Shown here piece by piece: positions 8,601 through 47,771 of a stretch of 56,576 nt of DNA (positions within the stretch are counted from its first letter, which is position 1; the number at the start of each line of letters is the position of its first letter). The translations under genes were made by a program, and so were the position numbers. The stretch covers positions 1 to 56,576 of the IMG/VR virus record IMGVR_UViG_3300044546_000637; one strand, given 5' to 3'. The DNA comes from a virus. The notes under the pieces were generated by a model that was not told the origin of the DNA, searched no databases, and saw nothing but the letters and a program-made list of their open reading frames with translations.

Positions 8601-11600
8601 TAGGAATTGTCTGTAATTTTGTAGATTGTGTTAGAAAACTTGTTAATATATCTTTGTTTATTTTTTTATCTATCCCAACGCCTTCAACGCCCCCCATTGC
8701 TCGGAGTACGTTTAATATATTTTGTATTTCTGACTCACTTAAACCATTAGCATCCCCGCTGCTAGATGTTACTCCTAAACTGTTAGCTTGATTTAAAACT
8801 TGTAGTTCAAGGGATTGTTGTTCTTTAGCTTCTTCTCCTTTTGTTTTTGCATCCCCCAATAAACCTAAAATCTTTTCCGCAGTTAATTCTTCTCCTGTTT
8901 TTTTGGCCTGATCGCCCAATTCTTTTAATTGCTTGGAAAATCTTTCTCCTTCTGTTTCTAGTGAACTTATATATTTGCCTATTACTGGAGCTAAATTAGC
9001 AAAAGCAGATGTCGCAACGCTTACTACGGCAACCAAAGGATTTATTTTCGTGCCTATAAAAGAAAGCCCCGTAAACACGGTCCCTAAAACTCCTCCAGCA
9101 GCTTCTAAACTCATTGCAGCTCCTGATCCTTCTTTAGCTAAAGATTGCATTGCTGATGTAGCTCCTACTGCTGCCGCTTGTAATGCGAAAAATTTTGTAG
9201 GATTAAATTCTTGTGGCTCTTTATTTGCTTTGCTTGTTTTTGAAACAGGTACTCCTTCTAAACTTGGGAATGGCAAATTTTTTATATTTGCCGCTGGACT
9301 TGATTTTATTTTAGATATAAAACTTTCAGTATTTGTTAAAAGATTTTTTTGCGCAGTTTCGTTTAACCCGTAAGTCACAGATAAAGACTTTATCTTTTCT
9401 ATTAAATTATTTTCGTTAATTGATCCATTTCTATAAGCTATCTGACTTAAAATAATTTCTTTAGTTAGTTTGTTCTTTGCGTCGCTTAAAATATTAGATG
9501 ACTCTATTTCTTTTTTTTGTCCTGCAATTGAATCTAACTCTTTTAGTGCGGCTCTTTTATCTTTTCTATTACCCCCAAACATTCCTGAGCCTTGAGCTGG
9601 TTTATCGTCGGCAAAATTTGGAATCTTCCCATCTGGTTCGTCTCTTGTGTTAATGACGGCAAATCCTTCTGGATTTTTTCCATTTTTTAATCTTGCGTCT
9701 TTTGTGATGCGGATTTGAGAAGGATCTAATCCAGCCGCCATTTCTCTTTCAACGGCAGCTTTTAATGGGTCTGCAAAGTTAGGAATGTAACCTAATGAAG
9801 CGGCTCCTGTTTGAAAAGACTCAGGATCAATAATAGCGTTTTCTTCTAAATTCGCCTTTACCATTATGCTGGACATTTTTTTGCCCGCATTATTTTTTAG
9901 CATACCTACTTTTTTAACAGCGCCAGGATCAGTTCTAATTTCATCAAATAAACTTAAAAGTTTTGTAGATTGTTTTCCTTCTTTTAAAATTGTCCCCAAT
10001 GTTTGTTTAATCTCTGATTGTCCTTGTTTTGGATTATTGTCAAAAGCTTTATAAAAAAGAGTTGCTCCATCAATTTGTGAAGTTTCGTTAAGCGAAATAG
10101 ATTGTCTATTAGCTTTTGTTGCCTTTATTATTTTATCTGGAGCGGTATCTTGGTTGCCGTTTATTAATTTGGCTAATATACTTTTTCTAGCGTACTCATT
10201 AAAATTAAGTTTAAGATCTCCCCAAGATCCTTTAACACCTAAAGCATTTTTTTTGTCTTGAGGGGCTTTATCTAAATCGCCAGGATAAAAATCAAAAATT
10301 GCGTTCGATCCTCTTGTTTCAGGCACGCCCAAATAATCACGGACTCTTTCTTCAAAATCATCTCCAGCTATAGTAGATGCTGGTCTAACTCCTATTTCAT
10401 TAGCAAAATTTGGAACGTATCCACCAGCTGCTCCGAGTTTTTTAGCTCCAGCAGGAAGGCCAAATGATCTAATCATATCTTGGTTAAAGATAGCCGATCC
10501 ACCGTTAGCGTAATTAGGCACAATATACTCGCTAGTATTAGCGATCATTGTTCCCTTTTTGCCGCCACCAAAAGCAAAATTTGGAATAGAAACTACTTTA
10601 GATGAAGAGCTAGCTCCTCCAACTCCACGGCTAACATCGGCGGCTTCTTGAGCTGGTAAATATCCAGATGAGCCTTTCTTTACAAGTTTCCCTGATGTCG
10701 CGCTAAATCCACCTGTTTGAATAGCTGGGGCAAGAGCGACAGATATATCTCTAACCTTTTTTAAAGCAATTTCTTGATCATTATAAATTTTCAACAAAGC
10801 TTTTTCTTGCGCTTTTCTATCTCCAGCAAGAGAGTTCATCCGCTGCATTACGCTTTCGTTACTAATCAATGTATTATATACCGCTTGCTCTAAAGCCTCT
10901 CTTTCTTTTACTTTAGAATTTAATCCTAGAATAGTCTGTAAAGATTCAGCCCCGAACTGAATAATATTTTTTGTTAATATTACAAACAAAGCAGTCAATA
11001 CAGGAATACCTACTTTAAAAAACACTCCTCCTAAGCCGCTAATTAAACCTTTTGCTATATTTCCCCCAATTCCTTCTGAATCTATAACACTATTAATTGA
11101 CGATACTAAATCCCCGAAAAAGTTTAACAAACCTTTTAAATTATCCGATACTCCAATTCGTCCTATTGAATTTGCTAATTTATCCGTGGAAACAGAAACG
11201 CTATTGATTATCGCATCTAGCGATTTATTTAATTCTATTTGTCTTTGATAAGCTTCACTACTTGCATTAGAAGATGTTGTTTTTGATTTATCAAATTGAC
11301 TTTCCGCAGAATTTAAATCTTGAAGTAAAGCATTTAAAATGTTGATGTTGTATTTGCTACCTACCGCTTCTAATGCTTGAATTTTTTCTGTGCCAGATAG
11401 AGTATTTAAAGTTGACGCCAATTCTTTAAGGATTGGAACGACTGGTCTTACGTTGCCAGCAGCATCTACCGAAGAAATGCCTATTTTTTGTAAAGCTTGA
11501 ATCGTATCTTCAGATCTGATTCTTGTGAAAATAGATTTAAATGCGTTACCAATTACAGCGCCACCACGCGCAGTCTTTTCTTGAACGGCTGTAATTATGC

Positions 11601-18900: not shown

Positions 18901-21900
18901 TTAAGAATTAGTTTCTGTTGTTTCACTATCGCTTGCTAATTCTTTAACTGGTTTTAAAGGCTCAACAATTACTTTACCATTTTCGTCTGTCCATTCAGTA
19001 TCCATCATATGTTTGTCTTGGCGTTCGCCAATTACCATCCAAGAAATTTCGTCTGTGCAGGTAGAATCTTGAGCTTGAATTGTGAGAATATTGCCTGTAA
19101 CTTTTCCACGAATAGCAGTCCAACCGCTTTCGTTAGTAGTGAAACATTGAACTTCACGGCAGAGAGCTTCAAATGTGCCTTCTGTCATAGTGGCGGAGGT
19201 GTCAATATTCACGGATGCAGCACCGTTTACTAGTGTTGCTTTACCGCGATAAATAAGATCAGCTTGTGGACCTTCGATGAAAGAGTGAACAAGTTCGTGG
19301 GTTTCGGATTTTGAAGGTAGTGGATGTTCAATGCGGAATGAGCCAGAACCTTTGGAAAGAGAACCGGGAATATTGACAGCGCCGCCAGCAGCAATCGTCA
19401 ATCTTGCAGTACCGAATCCGCTACCGTAATTTCCATCACCACCATCTTCTGTAATATGAAATCCTGTTCCGCTAGCTTCACCACGAATTTGCCAGTTTTT
19501 TACGTCACGGTTTCTTAATAAAATTGCCGCACCATCAGTGCCGCCAGTTGTTCGCACAACTAATCCAATACCCCAAGCCGCTACTCCTGGTCCGCTAAAT
19601 TCTACAGGCGCATAATTACCTGTACTATATGTGACATTCAATCTAAAGTTACCAGGTGAGCTAGTCCCAATACCTACGTTGCCTGTCGAAGTTATACGCA
19701 TCCGCTCGGTAGAAACCGTAGCAAATTTCATGTTGCTAGATGTATCTACAGTAAACCAACCTTTTTCAACGGTGTTCGCATTATTGACCCACTGAATGAA
19801 TGAACCTTCCGCATCTGCTGCGGCTTGACGAAGAATAATTGCTCCTGTCGTCGCTGCGGCGTTTTGTATAAAACGTCCGTTTCCGTTTACGTCTAATGTT
19901 GCTCCGGGACTCGTCGTCCCAATGCCGACTTTGCCAGCAGCCGTTAGAACCATTGCTTGGGAAACCGTCTTGGTGTAAAACTCAAAATTACCGTCAGTAT
20001 CTACGCGAAATGTTCCGTTATTAGTTCCTGCCTTTGTAAAATAAAATCCTTGAGTAGAGGTTGCGTCTATTTGAATACGAGTATCAGAACCTCCACTGAG
20101 ATGTAATTTATAAGCAGGACTCGTCGTACCAATGCCGACCCTGTCATTTAGAGCGTCAACAAAAAATGTTCCTGAATCTATATTAAAATTACCAGTATCT
20201 CCTAATCTAAGACGTTCGGTTACTGCTCCAGAAGTTCCTGCTTCTATTACAAAATCATCAGTTCTTAATACTAAATCAGCAAACGCGCTATCTGCACTAT
20301 TTCTAGAACGTAATACATAATATGTATTACCTTCGCCTAAAAAGTGAAATAGCGATGTACCTGAACCAGCGACCGATAATCTATTTGCAGGACTTGCCGT
20401 TCCAATACCGACGTTACCGCTGCTGTCGATACGCATACGTTCTAAAAATCCTGTAGAGCCTGAGGGAACTGTTTCAAATACTATATTTGCTGGGGTGCTT
20501 GTGTCTGTCCATGTGCCAGCGGCAGAACCAGAGACTTGTGCGCCCCTAGTCCAAAGCGTTGCAGCATATCCGCCAAATTGGTAGCTACCAAGAAAGTTGC
20601 CAGTGGTTACAGCCGTTGGGCTTGCAAGTGTGCCATTGGCAAATTGAGCAACAAATACAGACGCGGATGTGCTGCGGATACTAATCCGCTCTGTGTTATT
20701 TGAGCCTTGCAAAATAATTGAAGGATTACCGGCAGCAAGAGCAGAAGACGAAGCAACCTGTAAGGAAGCTGTTGGTGCGGTTACGCCAATGCCGACGTTG
20801 CCACCATCAAAAATCACATTTGCCGACCCACCTTCGCGGCGAATGTAAAGATCGTCCGTGTTTCTTGGTCCAACAGCCCAAATGCTAGTACTACCACGAA
20901 CAAACATTACGCGACCATAGTCGGTGCTTTGAACGTAAATTTCACCACCATTGACATGGAGTTTTGCAGCAGGACTCGTCGTACCAATACCAACATTTCC
21001 ACTACTATTAATATGAAAACGCTCAAGATTAGATCCACCAGAATCTGTGGTATATATAGAAAATAAACCAGCATAATTACCAGAAGTAGAGTTTTCTCTA
21101 GCTCCTCTCATAGCAGCTGTTGTTGCTAGAATACTATTTCCCGAATTTGAATACGATCTCCAAGCAAGGCTGAGTCCAGTACCAGTACCTAAAGAAGCTG
21201 TACTATCTAATGAAATAATTGCGGTGCCTGACGGATAAGTAAACGCATTTGTTCCAGTCCAAGTGTTATTAGTTCCTAAAATAGATGCGCCCGAAGTTCC
21301 TTGAGCGCCAGTTGAACCTTGAACGCCAGTAGAGCCAGTTGCTCCTGTTCCGCCTGTTGAACCTACTGCTCCTTGCGTTCCAGTTGCACCTTGCGAACCA
21401 GTAATTCCTTGAATTCCTTGAGCACCAGTTGAACCTTGAACGCCAGTTGCTCCTTGAGTTCCTGTAGAGCCTTGAGTTCCAGTTGCGCCCTGTATGCCAT
21501 TAGGTCCAGTAAGTCCTTGTGTGCCTTGTGCGCCTGTGTTTCCTTGTACTCCATCTGTTCCTTGAGCGCCTTGCGAACCAGTTGTTCCTTGCACGCCTTG
21601 CGCGCCAGTTGTTCCTTGCGAAGAAGCTTGAAAAGCGCCACTTAAAAGAGTTCCACCAGCGCCAATATTTAAAGTTGAACCATCTGTTCCAGCAATAGTT
21701 ACTCCATTTGAAACAGTTAAAGTTTTTGACGAAGAACTACCACCAGCGATGCTAAATCCACTAGAATTCGCCGTAACAGTAACAGCGTTAACATTTGGCA
21801 CATTTAAGCCGCCACTCATAGTGTCGCCCGCCTTATTAACCGGGATATAGCCTAATATATTCGTTACGCTATTGTTTGCGACCCAAGACGAGCCATCCCA

Positions 21901-21969
21901 ACGCCAACTCCGGGTGCCGCTGGTATAAACTTGATTTAGTTCTGGTGATGTTGGGAAATTAAGGGCCAT
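18901..21969 (-). CDS. Tail fibre with collagen-like segment and conserved fibre C-terminal domain
   Basis: The 1022-residue fibre starts with '[23 protein letters not shown]', which also opens the neighbouring fibre at 21976 and probably anchors to the tail. Residues about 118-226 are Gly-X-Y triplets. The body has repeated 'SSGNVGIGT(T/A)SP' elements, a signature of phage and bacterial trimeric beta-helical fibres. In place of an S74 chaperone, the C-terminus (from about residue 890) has 'FRIEHPL', '[19 protein letters not shown]' and '[16 protein letters not shown]', a conserved fibre-end domain I recognise from other phages without knowing its role. Six bases separate it from the next fibre upstream. 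Confidence 0.85.
21290..21615 (-). repeat. Collagen-like Gly-X-Y repeat in fibre 18901-21969
   Basis: About 36 Gly-X-Y triplets, mostly GXQ, GXT and GST types, encoded by 9-base units with variable third positions. The triplets follow a short 'GALFKLL'-type reading in another frame that is not a gene. Confidence 0.9.
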
Positions 21970-21975
21970 TTTAAA

Positions 21976-24699
21976 TTATTTTTTAATTAACGCTTTTAGT
22001 TCTTCGATTTGGAGTTGTTGGTGTTCAATCTGTTGTTGTTGTTCTTTAATTGCTTCAATGAGAAGAGGAGCTAGCTTTGAGTAATCAATCGTAAGGTATT
22101 TCGCAGAAGCTGGCGCTTCTGAAACGATTTCGGGAAGAACTTTTTGAACAGCTTGTGCGCCTACGCCAACTTCACGTTTAACTTTATAGCCAAAAGATTG
22201 AGCGATAGAGTTAGCTTCGTAATAGAAACCTTCTAATGTTTTGACTTTATCAACTGCGTTTTCAATTTTACCTAAATGGGTTTTTAAGCGTTCGTCGGAG
22301 TAATAAGCTGTGATATTCCCAGCGCAACGAATAGAAGTGGAACTATCAGTTGGATCTACATAATATGCGGTATTGTTAGCGTCGTAAAAAATAGTAGCAT
22401 ATAATGTTGTTCCAGAACCATTATTGGTTGTGAACGCCATTGAAGCTACTCTAGATTCAGTTACTGAATTGAAAGAAGTTACATAACTGACTTCCCAACC
22501 GTCAGCCCAATCACTATTAATTGCTGAATATCCTGCTTGAAAATCGGTTACGAAAACTTGAGGATAATACCAAGAACTGCCAGTTTCTCCTATCCAAATA
22601 CAATTTGCAGTCGAATCATAACCAAATCTTACGGTATATGGAGAAGTCGATCCATCGCTAACTTGAGTTGCAAATACATTATACCATTGACCACCATTGT
22701 AATTATATCCACCAATATTAAATTCATGACATAAACCCGTGCTATACTGGTAAATTTTAACAGTAAAACGCAACATCGTATTTGAATTAAGCTTGGCTGT
22801 TGGAAGTTTAATTTTAATCGCACCAGTAATAGAGGATGATTGAGTTGTATATGATCCACCTCCTGGAGCAACAACACGCGTTGAATCTAGAGAAACATGA
22901 GAAGTTAATGTTCTATACAATACTGATGTAGATGCAGGATCACAATAATATGAAGTATTACTGCTATCATAAAAAAGTGGCGCTCGCATACTACCAGATG
23001 TAGTAGTATAAGCTCCTGTATGATAACATAATTCCAATGGATCACCAGCAGCGCCAGAATTTACAGTATCTGTATAAACATTATTTCCAAAAAACCCGTA
23101 AGCCGAACTAGCCGAACTATACATATTAGTATAGGTAATTGCATTTAATCTACTGGTACTGGCTGGATCGCAATAATATCCTGTATCATTACTGTCATAG
23201 AAAATTGGTGCGCGGAATGAACCATAAGCTGTTACATAATTACCAGTATTAATACCAAGAGCTACGTTTCCAGTTCCGCTAATATCACTGCTGGAACCGT
23301 TAACCCAGAAAAACATTCCTGCTGCGGCACTACTGTAATCAACACCTATTCCCGAAAATTTTGTAGCATTAGAACCAAATACAAGAACTGGAAACGTGGC
23401 AGACAAAAGCATGCTGCGATTCCAACCACCAGTCATTGTTGTTCCGCCATTATTTACAAATGTTCCATTAAGATTAGTTCCGCTCGCTGGATCACAATAA
23501 TAACTTGTATTATTACTATCATAAAATAATGGAGCGCGAAAACTTCCAGCAGATTCAACATAGTTTCTTGGAAAATATGAATAACCAGTATTCATAATTC
23601 TCAAACCAATCTGCGGGCCAGTTGCGTAACTGTCCGTAGTAGCAAAAGCCATATGAGTACCTTCACTGCCGTTATTACTTACGTAAATACCAGCTTGAGC
23701 AGCTGCATTGTTACCAACGCCGAAAGTAATTGCGCCTTCGTAGGAATTTCCTCCACCAGTCCCACCGCCTGGATTAATATGAACGCCACCAAGTACGGAA
23801 GTGCCAATACTAAACGAACTATTTGCAATTCCACTTGCACTAAGATAATTATAAGAATTTACCGCACTCCAAGCTTGAGTGTTACCTAAAATTGTTGCAC
23901 CCGAAGTTCCTTGTGCGCCTGTTGCGCCAGTTGCGCCAGTAGAACCAGTATTACCAGTATTACCTGTTGAGCCTGTCGCGCCTTGCGAACCAGTATTACC
24001 AGTATTACCAGTAGTTCCTGTTGTTCCCTGCGCGCCTGTTCTTCCTTGCGTTCCTTGAGCACCTTGCGAGCCTGTAGCTCCTGTTGTTCCTGTTGTTCCT
24101 GTAGTACCCTGCGAACCAGTAGCTCCAGTTGAACCTTGAGCGCCATTTACGCCGATTGTTCCACCAGTTCCTTGCGATCCTGTCGCACCTTGCGAGCCAG
24201 TGATACCTTGAGTACCCTGAACTCCCTGCAACCCCTGAACGCCCTGCGACCCTTGAATACCAGTAGTTCCCTGCACTCCTTGAGTGCCTTGCACGCCCTG
24301 CGTACCCTGCGCGCCTGTAGTTCCTTGCGAAGCATCAGTAAAAGCGGCGCTCTTAAGAACTCCACCAGCTCCAATATCCAAATAACCATTATCAGTTCCT
24401 TGAATAGCTAAAGTGTTGCGAACAGTTAAAGTTTTGCTAGTTTCACTTCCACCAGCAACAGAGAACCCGGTGGTATGAGTTGTTGGCGAAATTCCGTTAT
24501 ATGTCTTTCCAGTTAATACTGAATGAATTCGCGCATTAGCAAGTGTTCCAGTTACAATATTGTCCGCATTTGTAGTATCAAAGAAAGAGCTGTTGAAAGC
24601 TTTCCAAGACGTACCGTTCCAGCGCCAATTTTTGTTTTGGGCGTTAGTATAGACTTGATTTACAGTCGGGTTTGCGGGAAATGAAATTGGAACGGCCAT
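21976..24699 (-). CDS. Tail fibre with collagen-like segment and S74 intramolecular chaperone
   Basis: The 907-residue fibre opens with '[27 protein letters not shown]', shared with the fibre at 18901. Residues about 125-270 are Gly-X-Y. The body repeats 'F(R/Y)[18 protein letters not shown]' four or more times, a beta-structured fibre repeat. The C-terminal about 110 residues are a Peptidase_S74 chaperone: '[14 protein letters not shown]' near residue 802 carries the Ser-Asp...Lys self-cleavage motif, and '[15 protein letters not shown]' and a final leucine/glutamine coiled coil follow. In characterised phage fibres this domain trimerises the chain and then cuts itself off at the serine. Confidence 0.9.
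23890..24330 (-). repeat. Collagen-like Gly-X-Y repeat in fibre 21976-24699
   Basis: About 49 Gly-X-Y triplets of GTQ, GVQ, GST and GNT types. Segments of 18 to 27 bases recur exactly inside it and also in the fibre at 31205 (for example the stretch encoding [16 protein letters not shown]), which makes inter-gene recombination possible. Confidence 0.9.
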
Positions 24700-24708
24700 A
24701 CTATATTA

Positions 24709-24716
24709 TTTTACAT
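24709..24716 (-). promoter_or_regulatory. ATGTAAAA motif upstream of fibre gene 21976-24699
   Basis: On the coding (minus) strand ATGTAAAATAATATAG lies about 10-25 bases before the ATG at 24699. It matches the shared (A/G)TGTAAA motif with a TA-rich follow-up. Confidence 0.25.
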
Positions 24717-24744
24717 TAATTTCTGTTAGTTTCTAATAGGTATA

Positions 24745-27700
24745 TTAGTTGGTTTCGAGTGCGGCTACGCGGGCGCGTAGGGATTGAAGTTCTGCAACTA
24801 GGTTGGCGATAACTTCAGATGAGGAGGCTTGCATGGCTTGATAGACAGGCTTGCCGTCAGAATCTACGGCGTCTTTTTCGCCACTAACAGACGAAGGAGA
24901 TACCTCAGCAAATTCGTGAGCAACGAAACCAACGCCCTTGTCGCCAGTATCCCAATCGAACGTGCGCGGTTTTAGAGCGTCGATAAACGCGCCGCTGCCA
25001 GTAAGGTCTTGGACGTTAGATTTGCGGCGATAGTCGGAACTGGTTGCGTAGGTTGTGGTGCTGCCAGACGAACTAATTGAGCCAGCATTTACCCGCGCAG
25101 AGCCGTTGTCTGTATAAAATGCAATATGAATTGGAGTAGAGCTATTGGCACCTAAGTCCCAAGAACCAGTAGCTCGCGCATAAATTCTTCCATCGCTCGT
25201 AATGTTTGTGCCATTAACACGGTTAAATGTTGGATCAGTATTTGTCGTCCCCACCAGCAGAGTGCCGCTGCTGTCGATGCGCATTCTCTCTACGACAGTA
25301 GTGCCAAATGTATTTCCGGAACTTGTATTATGGGTATATAGAGCTATCGCAGAACCCCAACCAGCTTCTCTTATTCCTCTAACTGCTGCCGTTATCACAT
25401 CTTCATTTTGAAACTGAAGTATGCCACCGTGACCATCAGTAAATGTACTATTACCTGTTACTATTGCAATTCCGTTATTAAATGCAGGAGTTCCAGTTCC
25501 GGCATTAACTTCAAGTTTTGCGCTAGGACTCGCAGTACCAATGCCGACGTTACCAGCGTTGCTAATACGCAACCTCTCGATTGGCGCAGTGTCCTGCGGA
25601 GATGTCCAAAAAGATAAACCATTCGCTCTTGAAAAACCTAAATTATCTTCAGAAACCGCGCCCATCATGGCGTATTTTCCAGCCGTAATGTTACCCATTC
25701 TTATGCCAGTAAAAGCTCCCGCGTTAGTGGCTGAAGATGGATCAGTTCCAAAAAACTCACCAGCAATGTCAACAAACCGAGTAGTATTACTGTCGTAAAT
25801 TCCTGTATAATATGTTGTCAGTTTAGACGTAGGACTCGTCGTCCCAATGCCGACGTTACCGCTGGCTTTTAATACAAGAATACCGGCGCCTGGGTCGTTC
25901 TGATTGTACAAATAAATATCTTGGGCAGTGACACTTCCATTAAAGATGCCTATGGCTCCGCTGCTGAAACCTTTGCTATATACATTTCCACCCTGACCCG
26001 CATAAAAATTACTGTGAACAAATCCCCAGTTACCACTTGCTGTGGTTGAAACAAATGTATTTGCTCCAGTACCGCTAATTGTTCCAGTCACGGCGACGCC
26101 AGTGGAGGTGAGTGTGAAATTACCTAAAGCACCTGCGTATAAATACAATGTGTCTGTGGTGTGTTGATAATCAATGCCGCCACGATACGACTCATTGCCC
26201 GTTGTTCCATCACCAAACCAGATTGAGCCATTTCTATTTGATGCACTAGCGATAGTTATGCCATTGTTGTAATCAGTGCCTGTATTTATGACAAGTTTGT
26301 TTGCCAAATATCCAGAAGGCGAACTCGTCCCAATGCCGACGTTGCCGCTGCTCGTCGCAAAGTTGGCTCCTGTGGTAGACGACAACGCCCCGGTCACGGC
26401 GAGGCCGGTGGAGGAGAATGTGCCAATCAAGGAACCGCTGGCAAAGTGTTTTGAAGTCAACCCATACATTCCGACATCGCGCCAAGCAGAGCCTGTGCGA
26501 TTGTAAGCCTGTAACACACCAATGTTGCTGCCGGAGTCATAACCTACTTCTAGATTAGAGCCAGATGGCGCGGGCGAAATAGAAGGAAAATATGCTCCAA
26601 CTGCACCGCTGATTGAACTGCTCGCGCTCAACGTCGTAAACGCATTTGTATTTGCCCAAGTATTCGCTGTACCAAGAATCGAAGCTCCCGAAGTTCCTTG
26701 AACGCCCTGAGCACCAGTTGTTCCTTGTGCTCCTACTGTTCCTTGTGTACCAGTAGCTCCTTGGCTACCAGTTGTTCCTTGTGAACCGTTTGTTCCAGAA
26801 GTTCCTTGTGCGCCAGTTGCTCCTTGAGCGCCTGTTTGACCAGTGATACCTTGCGTACCAGTGATGCCTTGAACGCCTTGAGCGCCAGTTGAGCCTTGAG
26901 CACCAGTATCTCCAGTTGTTCCTTGCGAGCCGTTAGCTCCCTGAACTCCTTGAGTTCCTTGAGCGCCTTGTGAACCAGTTGCGCCTTGCGCACCAACTGC
27001 ACCTTGAGCACCTGTTGCACCTTGCGAACCAACTGCGCCAGCAGCAGCATCTACCCATTGAAAAGTATCGCCATCATAGTAATAAATCATCAATGTACCA
27101 GATGTGGAGTTCCACCAAAGATCATTAACGGTTGGAGAGCCGGGCGCAGAGTCAGATGTTGTTATTTGTGTTCCTTTAAGACCTTGAACACCTTGCAAGC
27201 CTTGAATGCCTTGCGCGCCTGTGGAGCCTTGCGCGCCATCAGAACCAACGTAGCCGCTAGCGCCTTGCGAGCCAGTGACGCCTTGAACGCCTTGAACGCC
27301 TTGCAATCCTTGAACGCCTTGAAGTCCTTGCGTGCCCTGAACACCTTGAGTGCCTTGAACTCCCTGAACACCCTGAACGCCTTGAATTCCTTGCGATCCT
27401 TGAGCGCCAGTTGTTCCAGTTGCTCCTTGTGCGCCATCAGCGCCAATGTAACCAGCAGTTCCTTGAGAACCAATAGTTCCTTGAACGCCTTGAGTTCCTT
27501 GTGATCCCGTCGTGCCTTGCAGACCAGTGATTCCTTGAACTCCTTGTGTTCCTTGGCTACCAGTTGCTCCTTGTAGACCAGTTTCTCCTTGGATTCCTTG
27601 CGTTCCTTGAACGCCTTGAACGCCTTGAGCACCTTCTAATCCCTGCAATCCTTGAACGCCCTGCAACCCTTGAACGCCTTGAGAACCAGTTGCTCCTTGC

Positions 27701-30700
27701 GAACCAGTTTCTCCTTGGATTCCTTGAACGCCCTGCAACCCTTGAACGCCTTGCAACCCTTGAACGCCTTGCAACCCTTGAACGCCTTGCAACCCTTGTG
27801 TACCTTGAGCGCCAGCGTCACCAACGTCACCAGTTCTAGCAAAAGTAATTACAATGTCTTCGTTGTTTGAGAAAGAATTTACGCCAGATAATTTACTTAC
27901 TGGAACTTTAAAGTAATTTGTCGCATGAGTATGACTTCCAGTGATACTAAATAAAACAGAATTAGCTGGAGTTGTTTTGCTAGTGATCGAGAAGTGACCT
28001 TTGATTGCAGAAGTAGAATCATCAATGGTCTGTAAGAAATTGTATATAGAAACGCTTAAATCGTCTGTTTGGCTAATGTATAATTCAGTAGCAGAAGAGA
28101 ATAGAGCGTTATTTAAACGAAGTTTACCAGATGTTGGGTCAGCGTCAGTTGTTGAGTCGCTGAAAGTATAATCGAAAGCAGCGCCGCCGAATGTTCCAGC
28201 AGTTCCTTGTGCGCCTGTTACACCTTGTCCACCAGTTGTTCCTTGTGGACCAGCGATAGCAGAGAAAGCTTCTACCCAATTGCTGCTATAATAAATATTT
28301 AAATTACCGTCAGAAGAATTCCACCAAAGATCATTAGCTTCAGCAGAAACTGGAGCAGTTGCAGAAGTAGAAATTTCAATACCTCTGTCGCCTTGAACAC
28401 CTTGAGTGCCTTGAACGCCTTGAGTACCTTGTGCGCCTTGTGATCCAGTAATTCCTTGAACTCCTTGAGTGCCTTGAGTGCCTTGTGAGCCTGTTGCACC
28501 TTGAGAACCAGTAACGCCTTGAGTGCCTTGAACGCCCTGAATTCCTTGTGTGCCTTGAACGCCTTGCAGTCCTTCTAATCCTTGAATTCCTTGTGTTCCT
28601 TGAACTCCTTGTGTACCTTGCGCACCTTCTAAGCCTTGAATACCTTGAGTTCCCTGCGCTCCTTGTGAGCCTGTTGCTCCTTGAGCGCCAGTAATTCCTT
28701 GAACTCCTTGTGTGCCTTGAACGCCTTGTAAGCCTTCTAAGCCTTGAGTGCCTTGAATTCCTTGTGTTCCTTGAACGCCCTGCAATCCTTGAACGCCTTG
28801 AACGCCTTGAGTTCCCTGAACGCCTTGAACGCCTTGAACTCCTTGAGTTCCTTGTGAGCCTTCAAGTCCTTGAAGACCTTGAATTCCTTGAGTTCCTTGT
28901 GTGCCTTGCGAACCAAAAGTGCCTTGAGAACCGTCTGCGCCGATATAACCAGCAGATCCTTGAATACCAGTTGTTCCTTGAACACCTTGAATTCCTTGAA
29001 TGCCTTGCGCGCCTTCGGCTCCTTGAATACCAAGCAATCCTTGAATTCCTTGCGTACCTTGAACTCCTTGAGTGCCTTGAATACCTTGTGTGCCCTGAAC
29101 ACCTTGCGTTCCTTGAACTCCTTGCGTTCCTTGAACGCCTTGAGTTCCTTGAACGCCTTGTAATCCTTGAGAGCCTTGAACGCCTTGGCTACCACCAACA
29201 GAATTCCAAGTTGCGCCATCACTAATTAAAACAAGAGTCTTATACTGTTCTAAGTAATAAGCATTAGCTCCATCAATTTGCCCATTGTAAGTAGCGTCAA
29301 CAGTAATTTGCGCAGATCCTTTGTTTGTGATAACAAATTGGCGACCAACATTAGAAGAAGCTGAGATTAAAGTGGCAGTATATGGAGTAGCGGAATCAAA
29401 AACAATATTATCATCACTAGTTGTTAAAGTATAGTGACCAGTTTTTACATTTACGTTTCTAACAAAAGAATCGGCGTCAAGAGTTCCAGTAACATTAAGA
29501 TAATTGAAAACGCCAGAAGGTAAAGTAGCAACACCACTTAAGTTTGCGGCGTTTCTATAATACGTTGAATCATTTCCGTCTAAAGAATCTGAATCAACAG
29601 CTTTTCCTGTGATTGAAAGTTTTTCATCTTCTAATTCGTTGATTGCATCTTGAACATTAGTTGAAGAAATTCCGCTGTACGGAGTGTTAACAATAATTGA
29701 AGCATCAGCTTGTTTATTTCCCCAAAGACCAGAGCCGCTATTATAAATTAAGAAATCGTTGTTAGCTAAACCAGTAATTTTTACGTCATGAATTTCGTTT
29801 AGTTCAAAACCGTTTTGAACTTTAACGTATAATTGACCGTTACCGTTATTTGCTCTAGCTATAACACCAATGAAAACAAGATGACTTGGAGCGAGCGCTC
29901 TAGTTGCAGTAAAAGTGCCGGGTGTTGAGCCTAGCCAAACAGAATCACCAGCTTGAAAACTTCCAAGAGAAAGCCCTTCAACAACACCGTTAGACATTAC
30001 AAATCCAACACCGTTTGGAGCAATAGATTCTAATACAACACCTAATGTTTTGCTTGATGTAGCTTCAGTAGAATTAGAAGCTCTTTTTACAGAAGCGCGA
30101 TCTCCATGAGCGCCGAATAAGTAAACAACTTCACCTTTATTAAGAGTTGTCGCTTCTGCATTTGATACATAAGAAACAGCATCTTGACCAACTTGAAGAA
30201 CTACGTTTCCGCCTTTTAATCCAAGGTCAATTGTTCCATCTTCTTCGTTCCATTTTAAACGAGCTGGAAGTGAACCAAACGTTGTTCCAGTATGGAAATC
30301 AACATAATCAGTATGAGATATTGCGCCGCTAAATAGACCAGTAAAAACGCCGCTTAATACTACATTTCCTGTAATATTACTTCCATCTCTAAAATAAGAG
30401 CTATCATATCCATCTAAGAGATTAGAATCGGCAGCTTTACCAGTAATTGAAAGGTAGTTATTAGGAAGATCTAATAAACCAGTAATATCATTTGTGATTC
30501 CTGTTGTATCAACAAATATATAGCCAGTTAAGTTACCAGCATTTCGATAATAGTCAGCGCCAGTTCCGTTAAGTTTCGCAGAATCGGCGGCTTTACCAGT
30601 TACGCTAAGATAAAGACCGCTTAAGTTCAAGTCGCTAATAACTCCAGTAGCATCTGCTACTGAGAAGTTTACCTGCGCGCCTGATTGAGAACCTAAGTAG

Positions 30701-30711
30701 TATTTACCCAT
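24745..30711 (-). CDS. Long tail fibre with three collagen-like segments and S74-type chaperone
   Basis: At 1988 residues this is the longest fibre. It opens with '[20 protein letters not shown]', an N-terminus also seen at 31205 and 33217, followed by '[10 protein letters not shown]' repeats. Residues about 430-500 match the protein at 31205 ('SF(V/I)RNV', 'GRQFVI.NKG', 'GQIDGA..Y'). Collagen-like blocks lie at about residues 507-775, 964-1182 and 1222-1344, separated by small beta domains containing 'NDLWWNS'. The C-terminal third has 'SGNVGIGT(S/A)SP' repeats and ends in an S74-type chaperone with '[13 protein letters not shown]' near residue 1891 (Ser-Asp...Lys retained) and a coiled coil. 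It is first in a group of three related fibre genes. Confidence 0.9.
26680..27045 (-). repeat. Collagen-like Gly-X-Y repeat, third block of the 1988-residue fibre
   Basis: About 40 Gly-X-Y triplets with GAQ, GTT, GSQ and GVQ units. It directly precedes a '[18 protein letters not shown]' element, which also follows the collagen block of the fibre at 18901. Confidence 0.9.
27165..27820 (-). repeat. Collagen-like Gly-X-Y repeat, second block of the 1988-residue fibre
   Basis: About 70 Gly-X-Y triplets dominated by GVQ, GLQ and GTQ. Near 27640-27800 the 18-base unit encoding GLQGVQ is repeated almost exactly several times in a row. Confidence 0.9.
28385..29190 (-). repeat. Collagen-like Gly-X-Y repeat, first block of the 1988-residue fibre
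   Basis: About 89 Gly-X-Y triplets, mainly GVQ, GTQ, GIQ and GLE. It begins just after '[10 protein letters not shown]', the same junction as in the fibre at 31205. Confidence 0.9.
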
Positions 30712-30826
30712 GTTATTATAGTTACCTTAATCCGATAACTAGATTTACAGTTAAATTGAGCATAAAACGAACTATATTTTAACCATTTAAGGCTAAAACA
30801 TAGCTGCTATATAAACTCAACCTAAC
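30712..30826. other. 115-base gap between fibre gene 24745-30711 and the small gene 30827-31186
   Basis: AT-rich, without an open frame or clear hairpin-plus-T-run. It contains CTGTAAATC on the minus strand, a weak relative of the shared upstream motif, about 40 bases before the fibre start. It may hold a promoter for the long fibre. Confidence 0.4.
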
Positions 30827-31186
30827 TTATGGGGTTGGAGCAGAGCCAGAAGGGGCAACACCAGTATCCCAAGGCATTTTGATTTCTACTGGATCGCTCT
30901 TAGCGAGTTGCTTGGCGATTTGCTCGTTAACGTGCTCTTCGTAGCTGCCAGTTACGACACTTTGAACCCACGCGATAACATTAGCTTCAGTAAGAGTTTC
31001 AAATGCAACGAACTGTCCGTCAGGAACGTTCGCGCTTGTGAAAGGAGTAGCGCCAGAGAATTCTCCAACGTTGCCGTTTTCGTCTGTACCGATTTTTTTC
31101 CAGTAGGTTTGAACGATAGCGTTCTTATTTGCGCCTTCGTCTTTTACCTTGATACCTGTTACTTTCCATGTATATGTGATAGCCAT
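30827..31186 (-). CDS. Small conserved phage protein between fibre genes
   Basis: The 119-residue protein reads 'MAITYTWKVTGIKVKDEGANKNAIVQTYWKKIGTDE' and ends in a flexible 'GVAPSGSAPTP' tail. The 'TYTWKVTG(L/I)K' start with a 'V.Q.YW...G.DE.GN.G.F.GATPF' core is a short protein type I associate with marine phage structural regions; its role is unknown. It is placed between two long fibres, so a baseplate or fibre-accessory role is plausible. Confidence 0.65.
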   Translation of the reverse strand: MAITYTWKVTGIKVKDEGANKNAIVQTYWKKIGTDENGNVGEFSGATPFTSANVPDGQFVAFETLTEANVIAWVQSVVTGSYEEHVNEQIAKQLAKSDPVEIKMPWDTGVAPSGSAPTP

Positions 31187-31204
31187 AAATTTATATATTT
31201 TAAA

Positions 31205-33181
31205 TTAGTTTTTAATGTTTTCCAGCACTAAAATGCGGTCTTTTAGTGATTCGATGGTAGCTTGCTGCTCTTTCATCGCTTCGATAAGAAGAGCTGTGAT
31301 ATTTCCGTAGTAAACAGCTTTGTTCTTTTCTTTTGTTTCGATATTTTCGTATTCATATACGACTTCTTTTAAAACTGGTTCAATTTCCTGCGCGACAACG
31401 CCAACCATACGTTCAGTTTTACCAGTATAGTTAAAATAATAACCATTTATCTGCATTACCTTATTTAATGCGTTATCAATACGAACAATATTTTCTTTTA
31501 ATCTAATATCAGAAGCGCTTCCATAAGCGGTAATATTAGAATTCGCTACGATTGCTCCGTTACTTCCTAGACTAATAACCGCGCTACCACTTCTATTTGC
31601 GCTAAAAATACGAACTCCAGAGGTAAATCGCATTGAACAGTAAGCGTCATTCAAATCAACAATGTCGCCATCATCAGCGAGAATGATGCCTCCACCCGAA
31701 GCGTTATTTTGGCTAACGCTTATAGATCCAGCAAAATTGGAGTTTGAATTTGGATCTAAATAATATGCAGTATTGTTAATATCGGAAAAAACTGCGGCAT
31801 AAATTGTATTTTGAACTCTTACGTTATTATCTCCATTACCTATCGACATTAATTCAGCTTCGGCACCACCATTAGAAGTTGGTGAATCATTATAGAATCT
31901 TGTACCGCCGTAATTCCAGTACCCACCAATGCGAATACCTGTATGGTAACCAATAATTAAATCTGGATATGGATAATCCCAACCTCCTCCAGCTTGACCA
32001 ATTGAATAGTGATTTGCTCCAAAAGTTACATTAGAATTTCCACCAACACCCGTGAAAGATAAACGGGATAAAGTTCTTTCTGTATTGTCTATTGTTGCGC
32101 CAGAAATTCCCTGCGCTCCTGTTGCGCCAGTTGATCCTGTAGATCCAGTTGAGCCAGTCGCGCCTTGTGAACCAGTATTACCAGTATTACCTGTTGCGCC
32201 TGTCGCCCCCTGCGCGCCTGTAGCGCCTGTACCGCCTGTAGATCCAGTTGAACCTGTTGCACCTTGCGAACCGGTATTACCAGTATTACCTGTTGCGCCT
32301 GTCGTCCCCTGCGCGCCTGTTCTTCCTTGCGTTCCTTGAGCGCCTTGCGAGCCAGTAGCTCCTGTTGAGCCTTGTGAACCTGTAGCGCCGTTAGTACCAG
32401 TAGTTCCCTGCGCGCCTGTAGCTCCAGTAGTTCCTTGTGCTCCAGTTGCGCCTGTTGAGCCTTGCGAACCAGTAACGCCTTGTGTACCTTGAACTCCTTG
32501 AGTTCCTTGTGGGCCTTGCAAACCTTGAGTACCTTGAACACCCTGCGTTCCTTGTGGGCCTTGTAAACCTTGCGTACCCTGAACGCCTTGAGTTCCTTGA
32601 ACGCCTTGCGTACCCTGAACGCCTTGAGTTCCCTGTGGACCCTGAGTTCCTTGTACGCCCTGCAAGCCTTGAATACCTTGAATGCCTTGCTTACCAGCAT
32701 CAGCGTTCCAAGTTGATCCATCGCTAAACACAGATATAGATTGATATTGCGGCAAAGAATAAGTATCTGCGCCATCAATCTGACCAACTCCAGAAGCGTT
32801 AACTGTAACAGTTCCAGCTCCTTTATTTTTGATTACAAACTGTCTTCCAGCGTTGCCAGAAGCGTAGATTAAACTAATTGTCTTTGGATCAGCTGAACTT
32901 GAGATAATAACATCGTCAGCAGTAGAAACTGTATAATCAACGAACTTGGTTGATACATTTCTAATAAACGAATCAACATCTAATGTACCAAAAACACCAG
33001 AAGGTAAATTTGCAGTTCCAGTTAGATTAGATGCGTCTGCGTAATAAGATGAAAGCTGCCCGCTTAAGCGAGTTGAACTATAAGCTATGCCACTCTGCGC
33101 GTTTAAGAAAACGCCAGTATCAACATCAACGATTTGAAAATCAACTTGTTGAGGACTTGCTCCTAGATAGTAAACTCCCAT
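31205..33181 (-). CDS. Tail fibre with collagen-like segment and S74 intramolecular chaperone
   Basis: The 658-residue fibre begins '[19 protein letters not shown]' and, through about residue 155, parallels the long fibre at 24745 ('SFIRNV', '[10 protein letters not shown]', 'GQIDGADTY'). Residues about 164-362 are Gly-X-Y, including a 'GTQGLQGPQ' block with rare prolines. A compact beta domain follows, then an '[14 protein letters not shown]' repeat like that of fibre 21976. The C-terminal S74 chaperone shows '[14 protein letters not shown]' near residue 557 with the Ser-Asp...Lys cleavage motif, '[17 protein letters not shown]', and a terminal coiled coil. It looks like a short-form paralogue of the neighbouring long fibres. 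Confidence 0.9.
32095..32690 (-). repeat. Collagen-like Gly-X-Y repeat in fibre 31205-33181
   Basis: About 66 Gly-X-Y triplets. The part encoding [19 protein letters not shown] occurs twice about 110 bases apart, an internal duplication. Confidence 0.9.
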
Positions 33182-42867: not shown

Positions 42868-44739
42868 TTACCTCACGAAGAACGGAGTAAAAGTTTGCGG
42901 CTGTTGTTCTGGACAATCCATCATATCAAAATAGATTTTCATCATCCAGTTGCCTAATACTAAGCAAGAGTATGAGTCTTTACGGGTTTTTTCTGCTCCA
43001 CTTTGTCTTTTTAGTTCTGGCGGCAAGTCAAAACTCTGATGTCCATTAGCTGTTGTTGTTGGAATGATTAAGGAACATTGCGCTTTAACCAATTCGATCA
43101 AATCAGATTGATGATCAACGAAATCGACCATCTTTGCATCGTTCGTTTGATTATCTTCTTGATCACGGAAGAATTTAATCGTTTTAATTGGAATGGTCTT
43201 GTTCTTTTGAGCTGTGAAATCGTTATCAACAGCTTCTGCGGCGAACAACATCTTTCTATGATCGAAGTTAGATTGCAATAACTCGTTAGCGTAGCGAATC
43301 CAAGAGCTTGTTGGAACTCTAAGGTAACAAATGCGAGTGTCTTTTAAATTATACGCTCTTCTTGCTCTACGAATTTCGTCTTGATACTTTTCAGGCGAAT
43401 CAAAATCAGCTTCAAACATTTTAATTTCGATTTTAGCGTTTTTAAATACTTCGCTTTCGTTTGCGGCATTAATAAACTGCACGCCGCCGTTATAGTCTCC
43501 GCACATTCCAACGATGTTGAAGTTATTCATCAAGTAAGCTAAATAGTCGATGTGCTTTTTAAGATTAGTTCCTGATACAGCGTAATTATGAACGAGAATT
43601 CCTTTGCGATTAGGAACATCGAGCTTAATAAGGTTCATGGCAAAGTCGTCAGACGATTCATTCTCTGCCCACGAAGGATCGAAGCTTAAAATATAATCAG
43701 AACCTTTCTGACCAGCCACTTCAATAGCCTGTCCTTCAAGCGGCTTGATTGTGCATTCGTGCATCTTGCTTAGTTTAAAGTAACCAGAAGAATCGTCCAT
43801 GAATCTAGAACCGAATTCTCTTTGGAACTGTGATTCAGACATAGTTGACTTGGCTTGAGTCAGCAAACTTTCATCGTAAAGACCATGAGGAGCTACATCA
43901 TAAGCGAAATGCAAGATAGCTCTAGTCGAATTACCTTTTCCATCCTTTTCCGGAAACTTGATAAGCGATTCATATTGCTTATACAACTTATACATATACT
44001 CAAACTGATAAGACGCAGAAGACAGTACAATAATTTTATTATTCGGCCATCTAAAACGCTCTTCTTCAGTCATATCTCCTCTAGCGATCAACTGAGTCTC
44101 CAAATCATATACTTCTTTTCTCTCTGTTGGATTTTGCACAACAGAAAGGAACGGAATAATAACTTCGTTAAAGATTCTTTCGGGCATCAACAAGAACTCG
44201 TCAATCATCATACGGTGAAAGCGAAAACCACGAAGCTTTTCACCGTCACCAAGTGGTAAGCAGGTAATTTTGCTGCGGCCAAACTCCATTGTCCATTCGT
44301 CCGAACTCTTAGATACCTTTGTGATAGCTTGCTTTAAGAAAATAGCATTTGGCTTGTCCGCGATTTCCTCAATCTTGCGGAAAATCATCTTTGCTTGACG
44401 AAATGTTTTACTTACAATGCCAATGTGAACACCTTGATTCAAAATCGCGTCTAATGCAGCGAAAACAGCACAGGTGAAGCTCTTGGAGAGACCGCGACTC
44501 CATACCATCATGGAGTAATCTGTTTCAAACATCGTTTTAATTGCGAGATGCTGAAACGGAAACGGTTTTACACCACAAATAATCTCAGAAGCGAACGAAA
44601 TGTTGCTGCGCAGAAATTTATATAGAAGAATCTTAGCTTCGCGCTCTTCTAGATAACCTTCTTTCTTTAAAATCTCTTCGTTTACTTTATTGCTATTGTA
44701 AATGCTTTTTCTTTTTTGGTCGCCAACGATCCAAGCCAT
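42868..44739 (-). CDS. Terminase large subunit (ATPase-nuclease)
   Basis: I place the start at the ATG at 44739 (MAWIVGDQKRK), because AAAGGA lies six bases upstream; the frame is open to 44796 but that would overlap the previous gene further. The product is 623 residues. The ATPase half has a Walker A-like 'WSRGLSKS' (80-87) and a Walker B 'MMIDEF' with D180 and E181, and 'VLSSASYQ' as coupling motif (near 240). The nuclease half has 'YILSFDPSWAEN' (D354) and 'MCGDYNGG' (D415). It pumps DNA into the prohead through the portal. Its start lies inside the end of the ERCC4 nuclease gene, indicating coupled translation. Confidence 0.92.
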   Translation of the reverse strand: MAWIVGDQKRKSIYNSNKVNEEILKKEGYLEEREAKILLYKFLRSNISFASEIICGVKPFPFQHLAIKTMFETDYSMMVWSRGLSKSFTCAVFAALDAILNQGVHIGIVSKTFRQAKMIFRKIEEIADKPNAIFLKQAITKVSKSSDEWTMEFGRSKITCLPLGDGEKLRGFRFHRMMIDEFLLMPERIFNEVIIPFLSVVQNPTERKEVYDLETQLIARGDMTEEERFRWPNNKIIVLSSASYQFEYMYKLYKQYESLIKFPEKDGKGNSTRAILHFAYDVAPHGLYDESLLTQAKSTMSESQFQREFGSRFMDDSSGYFKLSKMHECTIKPLEGQAIEVAGQKGSDYILSFDPSWAENESSDDFAMNLIKLDVPNRKGILVHNYAVSGTNLKKHIDYLAYLMNNFNIVGMCGDYNGGVQFINAANESEVFKNAKIEIKMFEADFDSPEKYQDEIRRARRAYNLKDTRICYLRVPTSSWIRYANELLQSNFDHRKMLFAAEAVDNDFTAQKNKTIPIKTIKFFRDQEDNQTNDAKMVDFVDHQSDLIELVKAQCSLIIPTTTANGHQSFDLPPELKRQSGAEKTRKDSYSCLVLGNWMMKIYFDMMDCPEQQPQTFTPFFVR

Positions 44740-45656
44740 GATTGATCCTTTTCTATGAAGTATTGAATGTCTGTTTCCCAAAGTTTTGGGCCGCAAACGA
44801 GAAGTTTAGGTATTAACGCTACGCTATTTTTTCTGCTACCAGAAAAAACGAATTGACAGTTCTTGTGGAACTCTTGTTGCAACAAACGCATATTGTGATA
44901 TACGAATTTTAAGTTGGATTTATGTGAGGTGAAGTCGTTATTGTTCTTGATCTGATCAAAACTAGATTCCACTACAATAAACAAGAAACAATCCATAGAT
45001 TTGCATCTCTCGATCTCTCTTTTAAATCTGTCAAAGTTTTCTCCAACTAAAGTGCTCTTAAAATCACCTTCTGATTTTCTATCAACAAATGTTTTAGAAT
45101 AATTTTGCCCACCAGCAGTATAGTCTCCAAAATCTAGCTTAACTTCTCTCTGATTCTGAAACTGCAATGGCTGCTGCTCTCTTGTATCAATGAATATATT
45201 AACGTTAGAGTAGTCAGAGTAAAAATCTTTGTGGATATTCTTTGTGAACATTGGCTTTATGCCAATCTCAGAACAAGCCGCCGAGTAAGAACCGTAATGC
45301 TTCTTGAAACAGTCGATACTTGGCAGTTCGCTTGTCTCAATTTCGATATGACTAGGCGCAACAACTAATTCTTTGTTAGCTACTCGCCTTTCAAGCAGTT
45401 GTTTGATATACGGTTTAACAACTTCTGCTTTTTCAAAGTTGCACCACTTTAATAACTGCTCTCTGTTCTCGAAATCCTTTTCAAAATAAGACTCTTTATC
45501 CTTGAAGCTTAGCTTTGTACCAGTTAAGAGGTTTTTCTTCGGGTAATGGGCGCAGTAGTAGTCTGCAAGCGACATCTTATGCTTCTTCAAATGAGTATGA
45601 AGACTTCTTTCGCTTGGAAAATCTTGATTACATTCTTTGCACTTAAACGGCATCAT
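44682..45656 (-). CDS. C2H2 zinc finger - ERCC4-type nuclease
   Basis: The 324-residue protein has an N-terminal classical C2H2 finger (C6, C9, H22, H26 in 'CKECNQDFPSERSLHTHLKKH') and, from about residue 150, an XPF/ERCC4-type nuclease domain: 'IFIDTREQQPLQF' (D157), 'LDFGDYTAG' (D178) and 'FVDRKSEGDF' (D192, R193, K194, D198), followed by 'ENFDRFKREIERC'. This is the GD...(E/D)RK...D signature of structure-specific nucleases. There is no visible helix-hairpin-helix domain. It overlaps TerL by 58 bases and the small-terminase candidate by 14, so it belongs to the packaging operon; trimming branched or concatemeric DNA before or during packaging is a reasonable inference. Confidence 0.82.
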   Translation of the reverse strand: MMPFKCKECNQDFPSERSLHTHLKKHKMSLADYYCAHYPKKNLLTGTKLSFKDKESYFEKDFENREQLLKWCNFEKAEVVKPYIKQLLERRVANKELVVAPSHIEIETSELPSIDCFKKHYGSYSAACSEIGIKPMFTKNIHKDFYSDYSNVNIFIDTREQQPLQFQNQREVKLDFGDYTAGGQNYSKTFVDRKSEGDFKSTLVGENFDRFKREIERCKSMDCFLFIVVESSFDQIKNNNDFTSHKSNLKFVYHNMRLLQQEFHKNCQFVFSGSRKNSVALIPKLLVCGPKLWETDIQYFIEKDQSWLGSLATKKEKAFTIAIK

Positions 45657-46719
45657 CTAATGATATGCCCAAGATACGAGCTTTCCACTCAACCATACTT
45701 TCAAGCTTGCCAGCTTCCTCTCTAACAAGAGTCTTTTGCATTTCAGCGATCTTGATCATGTTAGCGCGCTCTTCTTCGTCTTGAAACAGCTGAACAATAG
45801 CTAAGATAGAAGCATTCTCCTTTTGTCTAGCGTTGATGCGCCCTGATCTATCACCTTGAAGCTTTTTAATCAAGCTTTCTACGCGGCCTTCGCATTGATG
45901 ATACTCGCCGCTCTTCGCTTTGATGATTTCGGCAAGACGAATACTCATTTCGTTCTGCTCTTGAGTATCTTCAAACATTTTATTCAGCTTATCCAAGTGT
46001 CTTGAAGTTGTTTCCAAGTTGATAATTTCTTTGCACACGTTCATGTACAAATTAACTTCATCAGCAGTAAGGTCAGGCTTGTCCCAAGTCATTCTAATGA
46101 ACTCTTCCTCGAAAATATTACGATCTTCTTGTGATGTATAGCAGTTAATGATCTTTTGAAACCGCGAGTTGGCTAAATTGATAGTAAGCTTCTCAATACA
46201 GAATTTATGTTGGCGGTTTAATTTTTCTTTATTGATCTTTTCGCCAGTAGCTTGATTGATTTTGTTAACTACGCGCTCAACAGAACGCGGAACTAAATAC
46301 TTTACGCCAATAGCGCTTTCGGATTCAGGTTGACCTTCTGCGTTTACCGTTCTAATGAAGTTTGCCACAGCTCTTTGCTCAACTCCAAGGTTAACAATTC
46401 TGCGATCAGGAAAAATGAGTTCGGCAATTCTTACAGCAGACAATCCAATAGCTGTTTGATCAATAATAAACTCTTTTTGAGACTCTGAGAACTCAATGTC
46501 CGCTGCTCTTTCATACTTAGATGTTTTATAATTGATTTTGTTGCTTGCTAAGAACGATCTAATAGCAATTCCCTGCTTAGACCGCCCATCAAGCTTCTCA
46601 TTAGCAAAGAATTTGCGCGTGATAGTATTTAAATCAGGAAATTGTTTGGCTAAGTCTCTAATTTGTGTTGCCTCTTCGTTTGTGAAAGAGATGTCTGTTG
46701 TTTCTTGTTTAGCTTCCAC
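45643..46719 (-). CDS. Putative terminase small subunit / packaging DNA-binding protein
   Basis: The 358-residue protein starts at a GTG (46719) with a strong GGAGGA site eight bases upstream. The N-terminal half reads like helix-turn-helix modules ('EATQIRDLAKQFPDLNTITRKFF', 'KEFIIDQTAIGLSAVRIAELIFPDRRI'), while the C-terminal half is long and helical with coiled-coil character ('LEESMVEWKARILG' end). Position two genes before TerL, DNA-binding-like modules and an oligomerising helical region fit a small terminase. The family match is not recognised, so the name rests on context. Confidence 0.5.
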   Translation of the reverse strand: MEAKQETTDISFTNEEATQIRDLAKQFPDLNTITRKFFANEKLDGRSKQGIAIRSFLASNKINYKTSKYERAADIEFSESQKEFIIDQTAIGLSAVRIAELIFPDRRIVNLGVEQRAVANFIRTVNAEGQPESESAIGVKYLVPRSVERVVNKINQATGEKINKEKLNRQHKFCIEKLTINLANSRFQKIINCYTSQEDRNIFEEEFIRMTWDKPDLTADEVNLYMNVCKEIINLETTSRHLDKLNKMFEDTQEQNEMSIRLAEIIKAKSGEYHQCEGRVESLIKKLQGDRSGRINARQKENASILAIVQLFQDEEERANMIKIAEMQKTLVREEAGKLESMVEWKARILGISLDDAV

Positions 46720-47416: not shown

Positions 47417-47771
47417 ATTTTTCGGGAGATAGGCCATCAATACCATCAGAGCGCTTTGCTTTGAATTTCTTAGCTTGCGCTTGCATGGGATTCCGTTGTA
47501 GATCTTCAAGGCTGAAGGCTTTAAAGCCTCCTTCCATTGCGATTTCAACGTCTAACGACTCTATGTGTGGAAGCTCCTCAATATCGGAAGAATCTTCGTC
47601 ATCGTCTTCTACTTGTGAACTGCGAATAGCAGTTGGTTTCTGCTGAACTTTTGCCGTTGACTGTTGAACAGCTTTCGAGCCAAAAGAAGAACCGCATTTT
47701 GAGCAAAAGTTTGGCGCAAATCCAACATACTCATGTTTTGCGCCGCACGATGAACAGAAAGTGATAGCCAT
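47394..47771 (-). CDS. Zinc-ribbon protein
   Basis: I choose the ATG at 47771 (MAITFCSSCG), which starts just after the previous stop at 47776; 47795 is an alternative. The 125-residue protein has an N-terminal zinc ribbon (C6, C9, C23, C26), a low-complexity Gln/Ser stretch, an acidic block 'EDDDEDSSDIEELPHIE' near residues 55-70, and a basic C-terminus. It overlaps the sigma gene by 23 bases. A ribbon with an acidic segment next to a sigma factor resembles small transcription co-factors, but no function is shown. Confidence 0.65.
   Translation of the reverse strand: MAITFCSSCGAKHEYVGFAPNFCSKCGSSFGSKAVQQSTAKVQQKPTAIRSSQVEDDDEDSSDIEELPHIESLDVEIAMEGGFKAFSLEDLQRNPMQAQAKKFKAKRSDGIDGLSPEKYGSSKAR

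Follow-up and report, generated by a model that had tools for sequence, protein, structure and literature searches.

A variable slot between PNFA motifs in the tape measure protein of uncultured phages, carrying a domain with a nuclease-like core

Virion-borne enzymes and the tape measure protein of the window

Virion-delivered effectors have so far been found in phage heads (Alt, MuF toxins, polyvalent proteins) and in contractile injection systems (Tme). Tme of Streptomyces davawensis is related to tape measures, is loaded in a tail-like particle and has a nuclease domain, which is C-terminal, EndA-like and contains a DRGH motif (PMC11126660). The MuF polymorphic toxins of temperate phages are virion proteins that combine a conserved carrier with variable enzymatic domains; MuF is a head protein, its toxin is C-terminal and is accompanied by an immunity gene (PMC5576092). 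The polyvalent proteins of phages and plasmids, like Alt of phage T4, are enzymes ejected together with DNA, and many of them act on nucleic acids. They are predicted to be packaged in heads or transferred by conjugation, and tape measures are unmentioned in the paper on polyvalent proteins (PMC5512222). Our literature searches found no report of ordinary tailed phages whose tape measure has a slot for interchangeable enzymes; Tme, MuF toxins and polyvalent proteins came closest.

We analysed a stretch of 56,576 nucleotides of viral DNA (the window; positions 1 to 56,576 of IMG/VR record IMGVR_UViG_3300044546_000637), in which a single ORF encodes a tape measure protein (TMP) of 2229 residues (Table 1). 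The TP901-type domain of this protein scored well above curated cut-offs (TIGR01760, 125.6 bits compared with 28.8; PF10145, PhageMin_Tail, 101.5 compared with 33.2). Like TP901-1-type TMPs, it has an N-terminal PhageMin_Tail domain and a ruler region; unlike them, it has a PNFA-bordered slot, which we read as a cargo slot. The segment in this slot (203 residues, 635-837) lies between GYVPNFA and GYIPNFA and is thus internal, whereas the nuclease of Tme is C-terminal; its motif is E-D-(D/E)xK, the DRGH motif being absent from the window TMP, and the slot is swappable and found in phages. In contrast to MuF, the carrier is a tail protein and the genes around it are conserved.

The first-pass annotation had proposed a nuclease-like domain embedded in the TMP between PNFA-type motifs, and the ORF, residue numbers and motifs that it gave were exact. 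Within the TMP, DDFEERVRDYLG starts at residue 648, NAIFDFYP at 667 (D671) and WGDLKLNF at 694 (D696, K698), and additional PNFA-type motifs begin at 572, 595 and 893. The TMP contains five [IV]PN[FY]A motifs compared with 0.008 expected from shuffled TMP sequences. No second ORF of at least 60 residues overlaps positions 10190-10430 on either strand. Two C-terminal modules of the TMP, residues 1867-1925 and 2102-2150 (DDVPAMLSAGEYVM...YG), are similar to the framework that precedes the slot (SEYIVPN...IFNQDM); the PNFA unit may be one form of a module that the TMP repeats.

Table 1. Features of the tape measure gene and other genes of the window (residue numbers refer to the TMP)
Feature	Position	Strand	Basis
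Tape measure protein, 2229 aa	5614..12303	-	TIGR01760 tape_meas_TP901 E 2.2e-36; PF10145 E 7.5e-29; phrog_4211 E 2.3e-50
Framework before the slot, residues 560-636, with SIPNFA, IVPNYA and GYVPNFA	10396..10626	-	64-87% identity, 17 divergent TMPs
GYVPNFA, residues 628-634, upstream cassette border	10402..10422	-	sequence motif
Nuclease-like core, residues 647-712: G647, F650-E651, D671, D696-x-K698, K712	10168..10365	-	conservation, 52 representatives
C-terminal part of the cassette, residues 713-837, restricted to the window type	9793..10167	-	low model confidence
GYIPNFA, residues 838-844, downstream cassette border	9772..9792	-	sequence motif
Short conserved module after the slot, residues 845-898, DPLKAAVEREMAAGLDPSQIRI..NTRDEPDGKIPNFA	9610..9771	-	present in 122/142 TMPs
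ERCC4-type nuclease gene	44682-45656
Sigma-70 region 2 protein gene	46709-47548
PhoH gene	48080-48859
HNH_3 endonuclease gene	54059-54763

A fixed slot with exchanged contents

A DNA pattern for GGY[IV]PNFA identified more than 120 stretches, mostly encoding large tape-measure-type proteins with several such motifs. The insert is preceded by a framework of about 75 residues (GVGGA..SSKVVSIPNFAFGGGKRGTMVANTSEYIVPNYAGGGSAIFNQDM...GYIPNFA), which is well conserved between the window and divergent TMPs (Table 1) and is found at residue 594+/-14 of these proteins. Scans with the framework detected about 240 relatives in IMG/VR viral contigs, and genome contigs gave two; from these relatives 142 distinct regions downstream of the framework were extracted. 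The stretch from the framework to the next border motif measures from 90 to more than 330 residues and is mostly unrelated in sequence between phages. It is followed by a module of about 55 residues with the consensus PL..A..RE..AG...IR....L.n..NP.G.AV.NTRDEP.G.IPNF, which may belong to the border or to a contact with the tail tube. The framework is kept at the protein level, its four-fold sites being near saturation (0.39 compared with 0.32 expected). No empty slot was found among the 142 regions. Compensation of cassette length by ruler length was rejected, the two lengths being uncorrelated (r = 0.00, 37 TMPs).

Used as a direct query, the window segment (217 residues) found in the first scan nothing beyond identical copies and one relative at 92% (L007), and no relative in genome contigs or phage records. 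Neither the cassette nor a 331-residue query made of framework plus insert (from L060) had a match among 50,697 phage records, in which whole-TMP matches were restricted to the N-terminal part. A TMP of the same type was observed on a contig of a Verrucomicrobiales MAG (L209, contig CALFSW010000038.1); this is possibly a hint to the host or a mis-binned phage.

The first-pass annotation had suggested comparing related phages for variability of the PNFA-flanked insert, and two comparisons show that the insert is indeed variable and is swapped. First, the window and L007 are 96% identical in DNA over cassette residues 660-844 (dN 0.024, dS 0.085, dN/dS about 0.29), and their TMPs are only 13-26% identical in most windows of residues 1150-1750. 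Such a cassette on such dissimilar rulers indicates recent transfer of the cassette between the two. Second, the window and L040 are 95-99% identical in four of five compared neighbouring genes (85% in the fifth), 98% at the C terminus of the TMP and 88-93% in the framework, whereas the cassette region of L040 is unrelated and 236 residues longer. Hypervariability is not unique to the cassette, which is one of two fast-changing parts of the protein, because the ruler region (900-1750) is also strongly divergent between these relatives. A 2023 survey of phage protein mosaicism was unable to confirm recent mosaicism in tape measures (PMC10684548); the window TMP is a clear example of a domain exchanged recently within such a protein. 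Two genes upstream and three genes downstream of the TMP gene are kept across relatives that carry different cassettes; an immunity gene specific to the cassette, as known from toxin systems, is therefore not apparent.

Other enzymes occupy PNFA-bordered segments. An ORF of L093 starting at base 3939 (+ strand, 3548 residues) encodes a TMP (PhageMin_Tail, E 6.4e-24), and between its PNFA motifs lies a clear CCA-adding tRNA nucleotidyltransferase (PF01743, PolyA_pol, E 1.6e-14); one member of the insert set matched this enzyme in PHROGs (phrog_2244, E 2.4e-57). The CCA-adding enzyme of L093 suggests a cargo for tRNA repair or anti-defence. In L136, L142, L145, L150, L161 and others, an extra cassette with a P-loop (GPAGSGKST) is present directly after the framework and before the nuclease-like cassette; the Pfam match of this P-loop domain is weak (E 0.004). 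These domains show that PNFA-bordered segments of TMPs are able to hold enzymes that are not needed for tail measuring.

The nuclease-like core of the cassette

The order and spacing of three motifs had been taken as those of a restriction-nuclease fold. Spacing alone is a weak argument, because a loose D-x(10-40)-[DE]xK pattern is common by chance in this TMP (40 observed compared with 26.7 expected); the stricter E-D-[DE]xK pattern is expected 0.05 times. The nuclease-like character of the domain was nevertheless borne out by profiles and by conservation. A motif-based profile was built from 57 TMP inserts selected by motif, leaving out the window and L007, and matched 138 of the 142 downstream regions, the window among them. 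Three of the four regions that it missed are truncated (6-84 residues), and in the fourth, L164 (252 residues), the D...ExK insert is of another kind and ends in a P-loop stretch. The window insert scored 21.3 bits, which was reached by none of 1000 free shuffles and by none of 1000 shuffles in which the seven motif residues were fixed (best 13.2). As it is conserved across other TMP inserts, the window core is more than a chance occurrence.

A second profile was grown from one insert by homology alone, with no motif filter. It recruited 137 of the 140 other regions and matched the untrimmed window insert, PNFA ends included, with an E-value of 3.4e-7; once the PNFA ends were trimmed the insert scored 9.7 bits, a value reached by 0 of 997 free shuffles and 2 of 995 motif-fixed shuffles.

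Conservation was counted in 52 representatives less than 50% identical to each other. G647, F/Y650, D671, D/E696 (27 D, 25 E), K698 and K/Q712 were present in all 52, and E651 in 50 (51 with an acidic residue). Conservation of D671, D696 and K698 in relatives had been set beforehand as a refutation test of the nuclease reading, and D671, D/E696 and K698 were retained throughout these highly divergent sequences. These counts are biased towards the motif, as D and [DE]xK had been criteria in choosing the seed set; the homology-only profile lifts this objection for family membership, not for the exact fractions. Around E-D-(D/E)xK-(K/Q) the rest of the insert is hypervariable, to the point that inserts are otherwise unalignable. 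Judged by this conservation pattern, the core of the cassette likely has a nuclease-like active site that would work like that of a metal nuclease.

A different nuclease-like insert type, SSxVDGYKI...IDLLE(V/I)KSG, was observed in two relatives (L152:4226-4720 and L164:4226-4770) and is apparently unrelated to the main family.

The fold of the insert was predicted with AlphaFold2. For the window insert the overall confidence was low (pLDDT 65, pTM 0.46), with block means of 83-91 for residues 648-707, and a Foldseek search with this model gave a meaningless result. The insert of L159, modelled with 103 aligned sequences, reached a pLDDT of 88.7 and a pTM of 0.78. It is predicted as a mixed alpha/beta domain, in which three antiparallel-looking N-terminal strands and helices are followed by the FE helix (122-141, E134), a strand at D156, a helix, a strand beside E180-x-K182 and a final helix. 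In a coevolution analysis of 115 sequences (Neff 97), the top pair was 157-181, which adjoins D156 and lies within E180-x-K182; we did not use this pair as proof, because it is compatible with neighbouring strands and leaves their direction undefined. The window type has a layout unlike that of most relatives: its FE helix comes straight after the border motif, and strand-like sequence is found after the core, not before it. This layout recurs in the first insert of L160, which the C-terminal part of the window cassette (residues 713-837) partly resembles; pairwise similarity is weak (Z 2.6).

The cassette, a candidate member of the PD-(D/E)xK superfamily, shares with nucleases of the Mrr, Hjc and YraN families the succession of an acidic residue in a helix, a D, (D/E)xK and a K/Q in the next helix. 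It differs from them in the interval between D and (D/E)xK, which is about 25 residues with a short helix between, and in the lack of significant sequence, profile or fold match. The window insert had no significant match in Pfam, NCBIfam, PHROGs or PDB sequences, and family searches of Pfam and PDB sequences matched no known nuclease. The profile search against PD-(D/E)xK families that the first-pass annotation had called for did not support its assignment: hhalign comparison with Mrr and YraN gave nothing significant, the Mrr profile being small (7 sequences, at least one of them doubtful). Foldseek comparison of the L159 family model with PDB and viral models gave nothing below E 0.001. The top PDB matches of this model, G proteins, were rejected as chance (E >= 0.036, TM about 0.2).

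The cassette might be no nuclease but an enzyme with another fold and reaction in which E, D, D/E and K are used by coincidence, and the family model, with its three antiparallel-looking strands first, indeed matches no PD-(D/E)xK structure. We consider this unlikely: metal nucleases are classically recognised by interchange of D and E before an invariant x-K, together with an acidic residue in the helix ahead of it. PD-(D/E)xK folds are, moreover, frequently missed by detection.

Possible roles of the cassette

With about even confidence, we propose that a fixed slot of the TMP holds this segment as a cargo cassette, which has a nuclease-like core and would be ejected with the DNA and act on nucleic acid in the host. 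The slot would open after residue ~634 between PNFA borders, and E651, D671, D696 and K698, plus K712, would form a metal-dependent active site. Lying in the tail tube, the TMP would leave it together with the DNA or before it and take the cassette along. Once at the inner membrane or in the cytoplasm, the cassette would refold and act on nucleic acid at the start of infection, be it host DNA, a rival element, or RNA or DNA of a defence system. An anti-host or anti-competitor role by delivery into the host, as put forward in the first-pass annotation, would fit such a course. The lambda TMP touches inner-membrane proteins during injection (PMC13190303), and a TMP-related effector of a contractile injection system is a nuclease (PMC11126660). 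Against the cargo reading counts that a globular domain of about 200 residues must pass the narrow tail tube. Recombination within the conserved framework and module would allow related phages to swap the cassette; we propose that catalysis is kept in this way while the remainder of the domain is diversified. Release of the cassette by proteolysis at the PNFA motifs, also suggested at first, found no support, and PNFA may just serve for linking or docking.

The divergence and exchange of cassettes could also be those of a contact module, whose diversity alters binding to inner-membrane proteins or evades defences that grip the TMP, such as SNIPE. SNIPE and ManYZ bind the TMP during injection, and TMP mutations allow escape (PMC13190303). 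We regard a contact module as rather improbable, as an E-D-(D/E)xK-(K/Q) motif that stays invariant through extreme divergence is not expected of a pure binding module, and as the CCA-adding enzyme occupies the same kind of slot. The presence of the domain in nearly every TMP of this type is what a core function would give, and the nuclease might have a task within the phage, such as tail assembly or the handling of genome ends in the tail tube; housekeeping of this kind would require neither such sequence turnover nor swaps of unrelated cassettes between close relatives, and is very unlikely. A selfish homing nuclease that spreads among TMP genes by cutting them would account for transfer between diverged TMPs and for the constant occupancy of the slot, but is the least probable reading, since other enzymes sit between the same motifs, no splicing domain (homing element or intein) was found with Pfam, and the framework, being conserved as protein and not as DNA, offers no fixed DNA target.

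Extending the cargo proposal to the whole group, we suggest tentatively, a little short of even confidence, that the TMPs of a widespread group of uncultured phages form a polymorphic delivery system, in which a PNFA-bordered slot holds interchangeable nucleic-acid enzymes ejected with the genome: an unrecognised, fast-evolving nuclease family in nearly all of them, P-loop domains and a CCA-adding enzyme in some. If the cassettes are active, the tape measure would serve as a delivery vehicle arriving first at the membrane or cytoplasm of the host, before the host's defences, and a domain family named by no database searched would gain a function.

Elsewhere in the window, several large tail-fibre-like genes were observed at 18901-33181; the tail-fibre-like gene at 24745-30711 has seven collagen-repeat stretches and an S74 chaperone domain.
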